The notes under the pieces: model-generated
The model's database searches: none
The model's input: only the letters and a program-made list of their open reading frames with translations
Told to the model about the DNA's origin: nothing
DNA from: a virus
Virus record (IMG/VR): IMGVR_UViG_3300048837_002094
Span: 1 to 26,561 of that record
Reading direction: 5' to 3' (one strand)
Length of the DNA stretch: 26,561 nucleotides
Made by a program: the position numbers and the translations under genes
Part shown: positions 15,880-25,475 of the stretch, in pieces
Layout: each line of letters starts with the position of its first letter
Position numbering within the stretch: the stretch's first letter is position 1

Positions 15880-16425
15880 CAAGATCTTCTTCCGCCATTC
15901 ATCTTCATTCTGCTTGGCAGGAATCGACTCGGACGAAACGTTGCCCACTGCTATCTTCGCTAGCACGGTGATCAGCAACGACTTGCCGGTCCCTTGCATT
16001 GGAGCGTCGACAATAGCCAGCGGCACATGTCCCTTGATGACCGGACGCATCAGTATCGAAAACAAAATCGCCAGTGCATTGGCGCGGCTTGCATCATCAA
16101 CGAACGGGAACTCATCGATTACCTGCAGGAGAATATCAACGCACGCGCGGACTTCTTCGCCGCAAGGATACTCTGGGACTGGTCTGAGGTTGAGCGAAGG
16201 GTCAGGACAATACATCAACCTCGATGTGGAATCGTAGCCAGGCGTTGTGCAAATGGTTCCATCGCCTCGCAAGATGGGAGCGCGAGCCACGCCGGCAAGT
16301 GGCGGGAGGTCCCAGTCTGTTTGTGCTAGAATATTCTCGGCAAGCGCTTTAGGAGGGTTGGTGCCGACAGGAATGTAGCCACCATCCGATTTGCGCATGG
16401 TGAAGAAATTAGCGACTTCGGTGAA
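15880..16425 (-). pseudogene. Phage primase/helicase-like ATPase, internal fragment
   Basis: Roughly 180 residues of a helicase-type ATPase remain. The segment TEVANFFTMRKSDGG, the QTDWDLPPLAGVARAPIL block (reading on to a GYDSTSRLMYCP turn) and the ATPase core RANALAILFSILMRPVIKGH followed by AIVDAPMQGTGKSLL (Walker A) are of the kind found C-terminal to phage/plasmid primase domains. Upstream, the frame meets a TAG just before FTEVAN. Downstream, the similarity ends after NEDEWRKKI, before the Walker B and sensor motifs, and the frame runs on to 15772 as nonsense. The fragment lacks both the primase part and the second half of the ATPase, so it is non-functional. An ATG-initiated ORF (16398-15772) exists, but it starts inside the domain. 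Confidence 0.65.
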
Positions 16426-16969
16426 CTACATTGCGGGCTCGGTCCGGCAGACTGGGCACCGTCTTGGTGTACTCGCCAGTCCGCGTTTCGATCGTTCTGT
16501 CGACCGCATGTGAAATGAGAATCAGGCCGTAAGGCAGACTGGCCAGTCTGGTCAGTACGCGATGCCACTCGTTTTTGACCAGCGCCCAACCCTTGCCGTG
16601 AGCCATGTCGCCTTCATACTCAATACCATGCTTGGCACACACGTGCTCGGAGCACATTTTGAAGGCGTTGTCGACTGTATCGATGACCACTGTTTGGAAA
16701 TTGTGATCACCCTTGGCAATCAACTTGCATGCTTCGAGGAATGCCTCCCAGGAATAGGTAGGTACCTTAAAGACTTCCAGGTGATTGAGGCCTGGTTCAC
16801 ATTCCAGAAAGATTGCGGATGGAAATCTTGAAGCCATGGTACTTTTTCCCAACTTGGGAGCCGAGTACAGCAGGATGGTTTGTTTGCCGAGTTCGGTAAC
16901 AGGTTTTGATGGTTCCGTGGGCAAAATTAGTGGGGAGTCCGGGGTCGGGAGCCTGGAGTTAGAATTCAT
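16409..16969 (-). CDS. Phage AAA_24 (Sak4-like) ATPase, C-terminally truncated with repeat-derived N-terminus
   Basis: This 186-residue P-loop protein has Walker A SAPKLGKST (residues 36-44), Walker B VVIDT (94-98) and LILISHAVDRTIETRTG near residue 155, typical of the AAA_24 family. That family includes Sak4-type phage RecA-like recombinases that work with single-strand binding protein in replication and recombination. Two oddities stand out. Residues 2-14 (NSNSRLPTPDSPL) are encoded by the heptameric repeat array flanking the neighbouring four-helix gene, so the native start was replaced. The frame ends abruptly after PSLPDRARN with VVHRSR, where family members continue for tens of residues; the next bases already belong to the helicase-like remnant. 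It is probably defective. It follows the PD-(D/E)XK nuclease in the same direction. Confidence 0.7.
   Translation of the reverse strand: MNSNSRLPTPDSPLILPTEPSKPVTELGKQTILLYSAPKLGKSTMASRFPSAIFLECEPGLNHLEVFKVPTYSWEAFLEACKLIAKGDHNFQTVVIDTVDNAFKMCSEHVCAKHGIEYEGDMAHGKGWALVKNEWHRVLTRLASLPYGLILISHAVDRTIETRTGEYTKTVPSLPDRARNVVHRSR
16932..16959. repeat. Left heptameric repeat array, inverted partner of 17380-17411
   Basis: The array has degenerate 7-bp units of AGTCNGG type (AGTCCGG at 16936, GGTCGGG at 16943, AGCCTGG at 16950). The 28-bp stretch is the reverse complement of 17384-17411 at 24 of 28 positions. The arrays resemble the heptanucleotide STRR sequences known from cyanobacteria. They bracket the plus-strand four-helix-bundle gene and form codons 4-13 or so of the AAA_24 gene on the minus strand. 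Confidence 0.8.
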
Positions 16970-17013
16970 CAGTAGTGTTAAGTCCTTTGTCTGGAATCAT
17001 GAGGAAGATTTTT

Positions 17014-17367
17014 ATGAGAGATCACACAAAGCTCAGGGCGTTTGAATTGGCGGACCAATTGGCTTTGTTTGTTTACGAATTCACTCGACAGTTTCCGAAG
17101 GAGGAGCTCTTTGGTTTGACCTCGCAAATGCGTCGTGCCGCCGTGTCTGTGCCAAGCAACATCGTTGAGGGAGCGGCGCGCCAGTCAGAGCTGGAATTTG
17201 TACGTTTTCTTGAAATCGCTTACGGTTCGCTCCGAGAGCTTGAGTACCAGGTCTCGCTTGCATCGCGTTTAGGATTTTTAGATGTCGAGCCATCAACAAA
17301 ACTCCAGGAATTAAGTGCTGAGTCTGCAAAAGTACTAAATGGGCTAATTCGTTCATTCAGACGCTAA
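17014..17367 (+). CDS. Four-helix bundle protein (23S rRNA intervening-sequence protein family)
   Basis: This 117-residue protein starts at ATG 17014 (MRDHTKLRAFELADQL) with GAGGA 8 nt upstream. It shows the TIGR02436 signature: LFGLTSQMRRAAVSVPSN, followed by IVEGAARQSELEFVRFLEIA and a long C-terminal helix LRELEYQVSLASRLGF. Members form homopentameric four-helix bundles. Some are encoded within 23S rRNA intervening sequences, and a relative (Avd) assists reverse transcriptase in diversity-generating retroelements, but free-standing copies are common and of unknown function. Here no rRNA or reverse transcriptase is nearby. It is the only well-preserved plus-strand gene inside the phage early genes, and inverted heptamer arrays flank it. 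I infer a small inserted unit; the mechanism is unknown. Confidence 0.88.
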   Translation: MRDHTKLRAFELADQLALFVYEFTRQFPKEELFGLTSQMRRAAVSVPSNIVEGAARQSELEFVRFLEIAYGSLRELEYQVSLASRLGFLDVEPSTKLQELSAESAKVLNGLIRSFRR

Positions 17368-18425
17368 AACGGCTCTTCTCCCGACTCCAGACTCGCGACT
17401 CCGGACTGCCCTAGTTCTTCGTTCGGCAGAGCAATCTCATACAAATTGCCAGCCACGTTGGGATTGAATCCTGACTGGCAGTAAGGCAGATATTCACAGG
17501 GTCGCTGAAATAAAAAGCAGTTGGATGTATTAAGCAGCCACTTTCCGCGCCGCCTGGCGTCCAGATACTGCTGGGTGATCTCCCAGACTTCGTCCTGCAA
17601 CATGGCCAGGCGATCTTCCGAGAGATAGATGTACTCGCGATGGAAGGCTTCAGGCCGGGAATACCACTCTAACAACCGGCTCTGATACTCCTCGTCAGTC
17701 TCCGGTAACTGTCGCTTGGCCGTTGACTTGCCGCTCTTGTTTTTGGCTGCCAGTTCCGCTTTGCGTGCCTCGTATTCGGCCTGCGTCTCGCCTTTGCCCT
17801 GCTTCAGGCGGCTTTTTAGCAGCACGTTGTAGATCACACCAACAATCGGGTAGCCCAATTCCCGCAGGTAGTAGCAGTAGAGGGCGATCTGCGTGTCGGT
17901 CCACAGCTTGTCCAGATAGTTGGCATCAACAGTCGAGGCAGTTTTATGCTCGAGCAGATACAAGCCGTCGTGGCAGCGCACTATGGCGTCCACCTTGCCT
18001 GCCATTCGAAATGTTTGGCTCAGCCTCCCAGTCTCCGGATTGCGGATTTCACCGTTAAACTCCTTCTCAACTTCGACTATCTCAAAATCTTCAGTCTCAT
18101 AACGCTCGGCATAACCTCGCATCATGGCTGTGGCCAAATGCCAGGCAGCCAGCTGCTGGGAGTCGCCAGCGCGATTTCCAAATGCCTGGTCGATAGCGTT
18201 TAGCACCGTCTCAAGTCGAGCCATCCCAACCTGTGAGCGGTACCACAGCTCAATTGCACTGTGAACAACACTGCCAAACGACAGGACCTCCGGCCGCTCT
18301 CGCGGTCTCAGCTGGTCAAGATACCGATTCTTGTACTTGCGCGGACAGTTACGAAAGGTGTTGAGCGCCGAGTACGTCAGCAGCGTCTTATCGGTCGCGT
18401 CAACAGGTGTGGAAATATGTGACAT
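17364..18425 (-). CDS. PD-(D/E)XK superfamily nuclease (Cas4/RecB-like)
   Basis: This 353-residue protein has the features of RecB-family exonucleases. It starts with SALNTFRNCPRKYKNRYL (Cys27), has His55 in VVHSAIE, GKVDAI (Asp146), LLEHKTA (Glu159, Lys161) and a Q-motif DTQIALYCYYL (Gln179). Cys303, Cys310 and Cys316 near the C-terminus, together with Cys27, could hold a 4Fe-4S cluster as in Cas4 and AddB. In phages such nucleases process DNA ends for recombination and replication, fitting the neighbouring Sak4-like ATPase. The last ~14 residues (GQSGVASLESGEEPF) are encoded by the right heptamer array, so the native C-terminus was probably replaced. The 3' end overlaps the convergent four-helix gene by 4 nt. 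No adjacent cas genes or CRISPR array were seen. Confidence 0.8.
   Translation of the reverse strand: MSHISTPVDATDKTLLTYSALNTFRNCPRKYKNRYLDQLRPRERPEVLSFGSVVHSAIELWYRSQVGMARLETVLNAIDQAFGNRAGDSQQLAAWHLATAMMRGYAERYETEDFEIVEVEKEFNGEIRNPETGRLSQTFRMAGKVDAIVRCHDGLYLLEHKTASTVDANYLDKLWTDTQIALYCYYLRELGYPIVGVIYNVLLKSRLKQGKGETQAEYEARKAELAAKNKSGKSTAKRQLPETDEEYQSRLLEWYSRPEAFHREYIYLSEDRLAMLQDEVWEITQQYLDARRRGKWLLNTSNCFLFQRPCEYLPYCQSGFNPNVAGNLYEIALPNEELGQSGVASLESGEEPF
17380..17411. repeat. Right heptameric repeat array, inverted partner of 16932-16959
   Basis: Four consecutive 7-bp units NNNGACT (CCCGACT 17380, CCAGACT 17387, CGCGACT 17394, CCGGACT 17401) are followed by GCCC. The array is the inverted counterpart of the left array and lies just beyond the stop of the four-helix gene. 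On the minus strand it encodes the end of the nuclease ORF. Confidence 0.85.
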
Positions 18426-19045: not shown

Positions 19046-19642
19046 TCACGATTCCAAATATCTTTCGAATCCCGCCTCTTCGAAGAGCTTGCGGATCTGA
19101 GAGAACCAGTCGTTGAGTGTGGTGCGTGGAATGCCAAGGTCGCGTGAAATCTCAGAAATCGTGAGGGTTTGACGCAGTCTGAGGATTTCTTGAAACTTCT
19201 CAGGCAGCTTCCCCATGAAGGCCGCTAGATCCATTCGCAGGTCATTCAGCTCTTCTTCGCCCAACGGGCGTGAGCGTCCTAGCCGTCGATCTTGGTCGCG
19301 ATCGTGTAAGGTCTGAGACATCTCTGTGGTGCCACCGTCGTCGCTTCGGACTACCTTGCTCAGACTCACTCGACGAGCAGTCGAGCGCTTGGCCACAGAG
19401 CGATCGCGAATGACATTGACCAGATGGCGCTGAACTACAGTGCAAACGTAGGGATAGAGATGGCCGACCGAAGGGTCATAGAGCCGGAGGCTTTTGGTTG
19501 CCCTGACGTAGACCTCTTGGACCAGATCGTCACGATCCTGCTGAGTAAAGCCGGACTTGGCAATTAGCTTCCCAACCTGGCGGTGAATGATGCTTCGAAC
19601 AAAATTGTCGTCGGCAAGATTGATAGAATGATCTTCTGACAT
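19046..19642 (-). CDS. Phage-associated sigma-70-like (ECF-type) factor
   Basis: This 198-residue protein starts at ATG 19642, preceded by a perfect AGGAGGT six bases upstream; an in-frame GTG at 19669 lacks one. Sigma region 2 is recognisable as RDDLVQEVYVRATKSLRLYD with VGHLYPYVCTVVQRHLVNVI behind it. Region 4 is a helix-turn-helix: LRLRQTLTISEISRDLGIPR, then TTLNDWFSQIRKLF. The linker (about 85-125) is charged and variable. It is the first gene of the minus-strand phage block, so it may direct host RNA polymerase to phage promoters (inference). Its leader (19647-19750) is highly structured, and an operator-like array lies further upstream, suggesting that its synthesis is tightly controlled. 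No anti-sigma gene is adjacent. Confidence 0.75.
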   Translation of the reverse strand: MSEDHSINLADDNFVRSIIHRQVGKLIAKSGFTQQDRDDLVQEVYVRATKSLRLYDPSVGHLYPYVCTVVQRHLVNVIRDRSVAKRSTARRVSLSKVVRSDDGGTTEMSQTLHDRDQDRRLGRSRPLGEEELNDLRMDLAAFMGKLPEKFQEILRLRQTLTISEISRDLGIPRTTLNDWFSQIRKLFEEAGFERYLES

Positions 19643-19646
19643 GAGC

Positions 19647-19750
19647 GGACCTCCTGAATGAGGCCCCACAGGCGACAGGTCCGAGAGTTAAAGCCTGTGA
19701 GGCCCGCCCGCTCGTTTGCGGGCTGTTTCCTGTTGTGAATCAGACCTGTC
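19647..19750 (-). promoter_or_regulatory. Structured mRNA leader with possible pseudoknot and SD-sequestering stem
   Basis: Read on the minus strand, several helices overlap. Stem 1 is GACAGGTC (19750-19743) with GACCTGTC (19681-19674), 8 bp. Stem 2 is GGCCTCACAGGC (19704-19693) with GCCTGTGGGGCC (19673-19662), 12 bp with one G-U pair. Stem 1 and stem 2 interleave, so together they make a pseudoknot. A local hairpin GCCCGC/GCGGGC (19718-19723 / 19702-19707) lies in the first loop. A third possible stem, GGACCT (19682-19677) with AGGTCC (19652-19647), would bury the Shine-Dalgarno of the sigma gene and excludes stem 1. This is the layout of a translational switch; no known riboswitch class was recognised. 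Confidence 0.5.
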
Positions 19751-22215: not shown

Positions 22216-25200
22216 CTAGCCACCAGAATTAACCTCGTCCTTTTCAGAAAGGCGTGGTTCGTCGATTTCTTCTCCGCCATCGGCGTAGGATTTCCGAATT
22301 TTACGCCAATGCTCCAATTCGTTGTCATTGCCGGAGGATTCATAGAATTGAGTTATCCTGTCACAGGCTTGCTGAAGAATACGCTTCCTGGATCGCTCAG
22401 GGATTTTGTGTTCTTGTCTCATTATCCCGTGGTAACTCTGAAGCAAGATGGGTTCCGCTTCCTCGAGCTTTCCCTGTCCCCTAAGGCTTTCGCCGAGATG
22501 ACTCAGGACATTGAAGTATCCCCACTCGTCGGGCATTTGCTCCAGTCGGATCGCCACCGCCTCACGAGCTGCTGCTTCCGCCTCAGCCCATCGTGAAAGT
22601 CGATTTAGACTGTTTGCGACGATCAATAAAAAGACAGCCCGCTGTCGCTTATCCAACGCTTCGCTCGGCGAATGCAGCCTTTTTGAATCTAAACCGATTC
22701 GTCCTAGGTCCAAGGCTTTTTTGTGATCACCCAGGAGTTCACAGGTCAACGCTAGTTCTTCGAGGCTATCCAGAGTATGACGATGATCATTGCCGAGTCG
22801 TTTCTTACGCAACATCCAGGATTGCTCGTATAGAGACTCGGCTTTTTGTAGATCGCCTACTTCAACATAAACCCACGCCAAGTTGTACATGCTTGCGGTT
22901 GCAGCCGGGTGTTCGGGGCCGAGCTGAGATTTTCTATGTTCCAGTACGTACTCGTGAAGTCCGATCGATTTGCGATATTCGCCGATCCTCGAGTAGGCCG
23001 TAGCTAAGCAGTACATACTCATAAGGGTTTCAGGATGGTTTGGGCCACGCGTCTCCTTCTTTAGCTCTAGTGTTTGCTCAAAAAGCGGGATCGCTTTGAC
23101 CACATCGTTGTTGTCGTAGTAAGCCATTCCCAAGTTATTCATGCAGGTAAGCGTATTCGGATGTTTTGGGCCGAGTACGGCGGTCATTAACTCCAGCGAT
23201 TCCTCGAAGAGCCGAAGAGCTTTTGATAACTCGCCTGTCTCGCGGTATGCCATTGCCAAATTGTTCATGCTCAACAGCGTGTTGGGGTGGCTAGCTCCTT
23301 CCGCAGCCTTTGTTTGTTCTAGATTCTGTTCGAGCAATGGCACAGCCAAGTTCAATTTATCTGCGTCGATATATGCTGTTGCCAAATTGTGAATGCTGTC
23401 GAGTGTGGCGGGATGCTGCAGTCCGAGGCTTGATCTTTTGAGCTCCACCGTCTGCTCAAGTATCAGAATGGCTTTGTCGTATTGGCCAGAAGCTTGGTAC
23501 GCCAATGCCAGGCGGTTCATGCTTTTTAGCATGTCAGGATGCTCGGGGCCGAGAGTTGATTTCCCAAGCTCTAGTGTTCGCTCGAGAAGCGACAAGGCCT
23601 TATTGTTCTGGTTGGTTCCCATATACGCCGCTGCCAGATTGTACATGGTCGCGAGTGTTGAAGGATGTTTGGGGCCAAAAGCTTGATCGAGATGCCGTTG
23701 AACCTTTTCAAAAAGCTCGGCGGCCTCTGTATAACGACCGATGCTGAGTAGGGCATTAGCCAATGTCGCTTGAACTGCAGCACGGATTCGCGGTTGGTCT
23801 GCGAATCGCTCCTCGACCTTCAACAAAGCACGGTCGAGCAGCGTGCTCAGTTTCAGATCGGGATCCGGCTTTAGGTTGGCGTCGAGTTGGGCTTCGGCAC
23901 CCGCCAGCCCCAACAAGTCATTTTGCAGGAAGTCTTGTACCGCCTTGGCAATCGCCGCCTCTTCCACCGCCTTCTTTTCCGCTTCCTCTGCTGCTGCTCT
24001 CTGAGCTGCCTCTGCTTCTTTCGCCTCTCGTTCGGCCGCAGCTGCGGACTCGGCAGTCCGGCGCTGTTCCGCTTCCCGCTCGGCACTCGCGATAGCCCGC
24101 TCTTCCGCACGCGTCGCACGGATCGCTTGCCAGGTCGTGCCAATCAGGCCGATGACCAGAGCCGCGGCTACTGCTGCCGTTGCTCCCAACAAGGCTTTGT
24201 TCTTCCTGGCGAACTTGCGGAAGCGATATCCAGCGCTTGGCGGACAAGCCAACACCGCTTCGTCGTTGAGATACCGCTGGATGTCCATCGCAAACCCGTT
24301 GGCCGTCTCATACCGCCGATTGCGGTCTTTCTCCAGCGCCTTCATCACGATCCAGTCGAGCTCGCCGCGTACCAGCGTCGATAATCGCGCGGGCTCAGTT
24401 TTGCGATTGGCGGCTATGCTCGGGAGAGTTTGGCTGCTGCTGAGCTTGGTGCTCGGTCTGGGTGGCTCCTCCTCGCGGATGATCCGCAACAATTCATCCA
24501 ACGCTGCTTCGCGCATCCGCTTCTTGTCAAACGGCGTGCTCCCGGTCAGTAGCTCATACAGCAGGACTCCCAGCGAATAAACGTCGCTGCGGGTGTCGAT
24601 GTCCAGCTGATTGACCCGGGCCTGTTCGGGACTCATGTATTCCAGCGTCCCGATGATCTGTCCCAGCCCCGTAAACATCGTCTTTTCGGTCAGCGGCTGA
24701 TGGACCGCTTTGGCCACGCCAAAGTCGATCACTTTGGCCACGGGACGACCATCGTATTCGGCGACCAGCACGTTCGAGGGCTTGATGTCCCGGTGGATGA
24801 TTCCTTTCTGATGCGCATGCTGGATGGCATGGCACACGGGAAGGAATAACTCCAGCCGTTCGCGCGGGGTGAGATGGTGTTCGTCGCAGTACAGGGTGAC
24901 GGGCTGTCCCTTGACTAGTTCCATCACGAAGTAAGGCCGGCCGCTGTCGGTGGTTCCGGCATCGAGGACCTTGGCGATGTTGGGGTGGTCCATCATCGAC
25001 AGGGCCTGGCGCTCAGCTTCGAAGCGGGCCAGGACCTGGCGGCTATCCATACCAGGCTTTATCAACTTGAGGGCCACCCGCCGCCGCACAGGTTCGTGCT
25101 GCTCGGCCATCCAGACGCTGCCCATTCCCCCTTCCCCAACCTGCTGCAGCAGTTTGTAGGGACCGATCTGGGTTCCGGGCATCTCGGAGACGGGCATGTC

Positions 25201-25407
25201 GACGGTGGGATCCGGTTGATTCGCAATGGCCGGCCTTTCTAAAAAGCTGTCCGGCTCTGCGTGAGCGCGGAGAAGGGCTCGCACGCGAACAACAAGCTCT
25301 TGGTCACCGCCACTTGCTTCGACCACACGATCTTCCCACTCCTCCGGCGGTACTTTGCCGACGAGTTCAACGAAGATATCTTTGGCTTTTTGAGATTGGC
25401 TATTCAT
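22216..25407 (-). CDS. PknB-type serine/threonine protein kinase with TM segment and TPR domain
   Basis: This 1063-residue protein starts at ATG 25407 with GGAG 7-10 nt upstream; a TTG at 25419 is the longer alternative. An N-terminal region (1-80) is followed by a complete kinase domain: GEGGMGSV (about 91-98), the lysine of VALKLIKPG, the HRDIKPSN loop (about 205-212), DFG in VIDFGVAK (about 228-230) and GTLEYMSPEQA. One transmembrane helix (about 405-425, LLGATAAVAAALVIGLIGTT) leads to an Ala/Glu coiled coil (about 430-495). At least nine TPR-type repeats with LGPEHPxTLxSMxNLAxAY consensus follow (about 545-960). The kinase is cytoplasmic by topology only if the TPR half is outside, an unusual but common planctomycete design. 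Genes of this type often follow an ECF sigma gene, as here (gap 68 nt). Confidence 0.9.
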   Translation of the reverse strand: MNSQSQKAKDIFVELVGKVPPEEWEDRVVEASGGDQELVVRVRALLRAHAEPDSFLERPAIANQPDPTVDMPVSEMPGTQIGPYKLLQQVGEGGMGSVWMAEQHEPVRRRVALKLIKPGMDSRQVLARFEAERQALSMMDHPNIAKVLDAGTTDSGRPYFVMELVKGQPVTLYCDEHHLTPRERLELFLPVCHAIQHAHQKGIIHRDIKPSNVLVAEYDGRPVAKVIDFGVAKAVHQPLTEKTMFTGLGQIIGTLEYMSPEQARVNQLDIDTRSDVYSLGVLLYELLTGSTPFDKKRMREAALDELLRIIREEEPPRPSTKLSSSQTLPSIAANRKTEPARLSTLVRGELDWIVMKALEKDRNRRYETANGFAMDIQRYLNDEAVLACPPSAGYRFRKFARKNKALLGATAAVAAALVIGLIGTTWQAIRATRAEERAIASAEREAEQRRTAESAAAAEREAKEAEAAQRAAAEEAEKKAVEEAAIAKAVQDFLQNDLLGLAGAEAQLDANLKPDPDLKLSTLLDRALLKVEERFADQPRIRAAVQATLANALLSIGRYTEAAELFEKVQRHLDQAFGPKHPSTLATMYNLAAAYMGTNQNNKALSLLERTLELGKSTLGPEHPDMLKSMNRLALAYQASGQYDKAILILEQTVELKRSSLGLQHPATLDSIHNLATAYIDADKLNLAVPLLEQNLEQTKAAEGASHPNTLLSMNNLAMAYRETGELSKALRLFEESLELMTAVLGPKHPNTLTCMNNLGMAYYDNNDVVKAIPLFEQTLELKKETRGPNHPETLMSMYCLATAYSRIGEYRKSIGLHEYVLEHRKSQLGPEHPAATASMYNLAWVYVEVGDLQKAESLYEQSWMLRKKRLGNDHRHTLDSLEELALTCELLGDHKKALDLGRIGLDSKRLHSPSEALDKRQRAVFLLIVANSLNRLSRWAEAEAAAREAVAIRLEQMPDEWGYFNVLSHLGESLRGQGKLEEAEPILLQSYHGIMRQEHKIPERSRKRILQQACDRITQFYESSGNDNELEHWRKIRKSYADGGEEIDEPRLSEKDEVNSGG

Positions 25408-25475
25408 GTCGCACTCCAATGAACAATGCGACCTTTCCGGCGGATCGTCCGGAAAAATCTAGAAATTTTGAATTT

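Follow-up and report, generated by a model that had tools for sequence, protein, structure and literature searches.

The window, a 26.6-kb viral record (26,561 nucleotides) carrying terminase, portal, capsid and tail genes, contains a unit of ~480 bp (16932–17411) that is probably a copy of a widespread minimal mobile element with the layout heptamer array, S23 gene, inverted heptamer array. On comparative sequence grounds, the proposed anatomy and past movement of the unit appear well supported; the role of the S23 protein and the chemistry of movement we infer. It seems to represent a type of tiny mobile element not previously described.

The initial annotation had reported a plus-strand S23-family gene between two minus-strand phage genes, and this gene is real. 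It encodes a 117-residue four-helix-bundle protein of the S23 (23S_rRNA_IVP) family (17014–17367, plus strand; PF05635, E=4e-34), with a profile score of 117.5 bits against the curated cut-off of 33.8 that places it in the family. The likely start is the ATG at 17014, with GAGGAAG upstream, and the stop ends at 17367; a longer reading frame is possible from the GTG at 16975. The gene lies antisense between a PDDEXK nuclease gene (17364–18425, minus strand; native part 17412–18425, PF12705, E=3.5e-25, conserved in 80 viral loci) and an AAA_24 ATPase gene (16409–16969, minus strand; native part 16409–16930, PF13479, E=3.6e-39, conserved in 55 viral loci). No rRNA was found in the window, and the unit is therefore located outside a 23S rRNA gene, between two phage protein genes. 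S23 is the sole gene inside the unit, which encodes neither a transposase, as had been noted, nor a reverse transcriptase. No RVT_1 match was obtained in the 26.6-kb record, which may be a fragment, and no Y1 transposase was found in the phage window. Elsewhere in the window lie a serine/threonine kinase-TPR gene that strongly matches PD-T4-6-type kinases (22216–25419) and an ECF-sigma-like gene (19046–19669); both are probably of host type and located at the edge of a prophage.

An AF2 model of the S23 protein (pLDDT 96) had its best PDB match in 2gsc (TM 0.96), a relative also matched at E=1.8e-24. The next structural matches were to the Avd protein of DGRs, including its RNP structure 8ub7 (TM ~0.79). 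The PHROG match was "Avd protein of DGR" (E=1.3e-8), and the bAvd profile was far weaker than PF05635 on this protein (24.3 versus 117.5 bits). A solved S23 relative is a toroidal homopentamer (PMC4990558). Residues Glu-31, Ser-37, Gln-38, Ser-45, Asn-49 and Glu-75 are invariant and Arg-41, Glu-52 and Arg-56 nearly so; many of the conserved residues are polar, and no catalytic domain was recognised in S23. The dN/dS ratio was 0.08 between the window gene and its relative in phage L083 and 0.03–0.10 between S23 copies, even at different sites, showing strong purifying selection.

The inverted heptamer arrays previously described at the ends of the gene are also real. The left end consists of ~4 heptamers on the plus strand (16932–16959; GGAGTCC-GGGGTCG-GGAGCCT-GGAGT), and the right end of ~4–5 heptamers that read AGTCCGG-AGTCGCG-AGTCTGG-AGTCGGG-AG on the minus strand (17378–17411). 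TRF called the right array as period 7/14 at 17378–17407. The arms 16932–16959 and 17384–17411 form an inverted pair of 28 nt with 24/28 identity. The inverted score across the S23 gene was 18, as against a mean of 8.05 (sd 1.08, maximum 13) at 396 other window positions; this score, together with control positions at other S23 loci, rules out a chance origin of the inverted arrays. The S23 reading frame is thus flanked by inverted repeats able to form a stem, as in rRNA intervening sequences (IVS). The two arrays pair in the minimum-energy RNA fold, although the complete fold is unremarkable (z = −1.6).

Both arrays are in frame with the phage neighbours, giving AAA_24 an inserted N-terminal stretch and PDDEXK a new C-terminus. 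The left array encodes AAA_24 residues 4–13 (NSRLPTPDSP) on the minus strand, and the right array, in the PDDEXK frame, encodes GQSGVASLESG, which makes up the larger part of the PDDEXK C-terminus. Neither stretch is present in relatives. Relatives were found in 80 viral contigs for PDDEXK and in 55 for AAA_24, and in >70 related phages the two genes are adjacent, separated by a short gap with no S23 gene. The whole unit is absent from these phages, which provide the empty sites that the initial annotation had hoped would define the ends. Homology to the AAA protein begins at residue 14 in most relatives, and homology to PDDEXK stops near residue 338–340 in many; both points coincide with the outer edge of an array.

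The target duplication envisaged at those ends is absent, and target DNA was lost instead. In the window phage ~60 bp of native sequence was replaced by the unit. Two more phages with related S23 units have empty relatives, with losses of ~11 bp (L534 versus L536) and ~618 bp (L603 versus L604); all these losses are estimated from relatives that are not direct ancestors of the filled sites. Over 113 loci, outer-edge direct repeats scored 2.93 compared with 2.94 in shuffled pairs, and there is thus no sign of target duplication. A classical IS or DDE-type element with target site duplication was rejected on this basis. Break repair or template switching would be consistent with insertions that leave no duplications and remove differing amounts of target DNA.

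A native-looking PDDEXK tail (EEPF-stop) and an AAAGGA...ATGAA motif possibly lie inside the array brackets of the window, and a simple end-to-end insertion does not account for such a position of the tail and Shine-Dalgarno/ATG. In Hymenobacter, a promoter-like GTAGCTTTACC likewise lies within array brackets. Our first reading of such enclosed native DNA was that the arrays had formed separately in the flanks. Hymenobacter sites with array remnants and no S23 suggest that the motif there may have come with, or survived, the unit.

Array bracketing is general among S23 genes. Among 81 homologues from many phyla, matching inverted arrays were present at 79%, whereas displaced positions within these loci gave 0.9% and cross-locus pairs 2.5%; arrays beside other copies are therefore the rule, as the proposed mobility had implied. 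Period 7 was enriched at these loci (57% versus 5%), with period 8 secondary and no other period enriched. An independent planctomycete set, the group in which the initial annotation had proposed to look, gave arrays at 21 of 28 S23 loci and at none of 81 controls. In cyanobacterial plasmids, heptamer arrays were seen by eye at all 10 of the S23 genes examined, which fits the earlier pointer to cyanobacterial STRRs. Across 194 unique S23 genes from many bacterial phyla, cyanobacterial plasmids and phages, a sample guided by similarity to the window S23 and including MAG contigs that may be misbinned, 72% had inverted arrays versus 1.6% of controls; about one-quarter had no clear arrays at the threshold used. 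The left arm contained more G than C in 129 of 140 loci, so that the G-rich strand runs inward at both ends. Array length peaked at 4–5 units on both sides, with a median of 4.4 that is near five but detection-limited. Several of the cyanobacterial plasmid units sit within operons (cas6/cas4, cas10/cmr3 and two ribonucleotide reductase genes; L524, L525, L526 and L528). The planctomycete CA13 carries seven S23 genes in 23 kb (L004, G003:C1 ~2409424–2432300); many array pairs lie next to this cluster, which may be a hot spot for nesting, and a tRNA-like stretch is found between arrays.

The initial annotation had expected a single heptamer type, AGTCNGG, to recur. This was not the case: the heptamer sequence is specific to the S23 lineage. 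The array type was common to 33 of 34 S23 pairs with at least 75% identity when all pairs at all sites were counted. When pairs with similar outer flanks were left out, it was shared at unrelated sites by 10 of 13 pairs with at least 70% identity versus ~3% of those below 55% (Fisher p=4e-13, for pairs that are not fully independent). The AGTCNGG type of the window recurs with related S23 genes at unrelated sites in phage L083 (75%) and in CA13 (L233). Conversely, S23 genes of one genome that were <60% identical shared their array type in 0 of 60 pairs, and the seven units of planctomycete genome G096 represent about six array types. Since different S23 genes of the same genome carry different arrays, the arrays are not a host-wide product. 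The S23 tree, although poorly resolved, mixes phyla (28 changes, minimum 16) and is also clustered by phylum. The array type passes down with the S23 gene rather than with the host.

Two copies within G096, L483 and L484, have 93% protein identity; their DNA is 88% identical over the stretch that the arrays delimit, arrays included, and unrelated beyond it. This similarity and the empty sites support the proposal that the arrays are the ends of a unit that was mobilised in one piece. They also bear on a reading with no mobility of its own, in which selection keeps the arrays as RNA stems insulating an S23 gene with a regulatory or ribosome-related role, and the gene spreads by ordinary horizontal transfer. 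The arrays do pair in predicted RNA, RNase III cuts out rRNA intervening sequences (PMC4990558), and array-stem pairing alone could be selected at the RNA level. We nevertheless consider this reading highly improbable, given array-to-array similarity at unrelated sites in one genome, enrichment of period 7 rather than of just any stem sequence, an array type shared by S23 relatives across sites, and empty sites without flanking recombination.

Arrays also occur without the gene. One Hymenobacter site is represented by intact two-array units, S23 pseudogenes with arrays, gene-less array remnants and sites without either. Decaying units are also seen at L006 1986–2333 and L007 10001–10369, where S23 contains an in-frame stop next to arrays. 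In 800 kb of Geobacter DNA there were 25 period-7 arrays at threshold, against 0–5 for any period not a multiple of 7. Where the Geobacter array pairs bracketed a clear gene, it was S23; the rest were short hairpins or single arrays. The solo arrays resembled the ends of S23 units in their own genome more closely than the ends of units in other genomes (14.4 versus 9.6 ± 1.2). Planctomycete segments lacking S23 contained 18 period-7 arrays in 329 kb from S23-rich genomes versus 2 in 306 kb from S23-free genomes; such arrays were found in 10 of 20 S23-rich and 2 of 20 S23-free genomes (p=0.014, a statistic that ignores phylogeny). No period-7 arrays were present in 654 kb of S23-free viral DNA. 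Far from being scattered at random, which would have spoken against mobility, the arrays show an association with S23 in cis and also at the scale of the genome. The S23-free genomes, the S23-free viral DNA and the 0/60 result rule out the arrays as a general host product. As a separate observation, identical CGGTATA arrays occupy successive gaps of one pilin-like operon in a Wolfebacteria genome (L041 10373–13725).

Gene-less arrays and solo hairpins are common enough to be read differently, with S23 as a passenger that settles inside hairpins while host repair and replication (slippage plus template switching at hairpins) make and spread the arrays. The lpxD-lpxC gap of Hymenobacter contains gene-less inverted array hairpins (L051 12850–13080, L057 12780–13010 and L080 12800–13040) whose heptamers differ entirely between species while both arms are still complementary. 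This pattern, which by sequence comparison would reflect replacement or concerted change, is what quasi-palindrome correction would give at orthologous gaps. A passenger, however, accounts poorly for the lack of array matches between different S23 genes of one genome, for S23 being the gene clearly bracketed in unbiased Geobacter DNA, for the near absence of period-7 arrays from S23-free genomes, or for strong purifying selection on S23 across moved copies. We regard this explanation as unlikely.

A further alternative is that a Y1/RAYT transposase or a reverse transcriptase mobilises the unit in trans, the unit being non-autonomous and S23 an accessory like Avd in DGRs. Avd shares the S23 fold, and Y1 transposases were present in 19 of 20 S23-rich genomes and reverse transcriptases in 12 of 20, although static gene presence is no proof of current activity. 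Against this, reverse transcriptase was undetectable in 8 of the 20, some of which are incomplete MAGs, and the phage window has neither enzyme. Geobacter G002, a 3.68-Mb scaffold, contains four clear units of S23 along with numerous solo arrays, yet lacks both Y1 and reverse transcriptase, so that neither seems obligatory. Movement in trans is accordingly quite improbable in our estimate.

For the mobile element that we favour, we envisage that the array ends are probably recognised by a pentameric S23 ring, by analogy with the solved relative. The ring would bind the repeats of its cognate end with approximately one subunit per heptamer (about five) and would then bring both ends together, after which intergenic DNA with breaks or gaps would receive the unit through copying or joining by host replication or break-repair enzymes. 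At the RNA level, pairing of both ends would give a stem of ~30 bp; its cleavage by RNase III, as known for rRNA intervening sequences, could limit the harm done to the host transcript. The broader proposal is of a new class of mobile element in many bacterial phyla and their phages: without any known transposase, a toroidal four-helix-bundle protein would recognise lineage-specific heptamer ends and drive both its own spread and a genome-wide scatter of heptamers that includes STRRs and rRNA intervening sequences. We consider the case for it evenly balanced. If true, it would provide a function and a driver for the S23/IVP family, rRNA intervening sequences and heptameric repeats such as STRRs, all long unexplained. 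It would also represent a transposition-like system with no recognised transposase, recombinase or reverse transcriptase, whose ends co-evolve with one small ring protein, and the model is directly testable in the laboratory.

The unit resembles several known systems. The 23S rRNA IVS of Coxiella and Leptospira likewise comprise an S23 reading frame in ~0.4 kb with terminal inverted repeats; unlike the window unit, they are confined to rRNA and described as fragmenting insertions. In Coxiella the S23 reading frame is preceded by three tandem heptamers (GACAGAT) whose number varies by strain, RNase III excision has been reported, and mobility of rRNA intervening sequences was suspected earlier (PMC4990558). 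Judged from this published description, the rRNA IVS looks like one known special case of the element. The IVS papers found do not describe array ends, a link to S23 type or insertion at ordinary sites, and searches of an open-access library yielded no paper linking S23 genes to heptamer arrays genome-wide. REP/REPIN-RAYT systems share a single gene between inverted repeats and gene-less end copies scattered in the genome, but their repeats are palindromic REPs with a Y1 transposase, whereas the S23 unit has tandem heptamers and no Y1. DGRs share the fold through Avd and differ in carrying a reverse transcriptase in the cassette. IS elements and MITEs share inverted ends and presence or absence at orthologous sites; the S23 unit differs in having no transposase, no target duplication, variable target loss and ends that differ between lineages. 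Finally, cyanobacterial STRRs are, like the arrays, tandem 7-bp repeats in intergenic DNA; the window itself is not cyanobacterial. To our knowledge, STRRs have no assigned cause, and we propose that their heptamers are ends or relics of S23 units.
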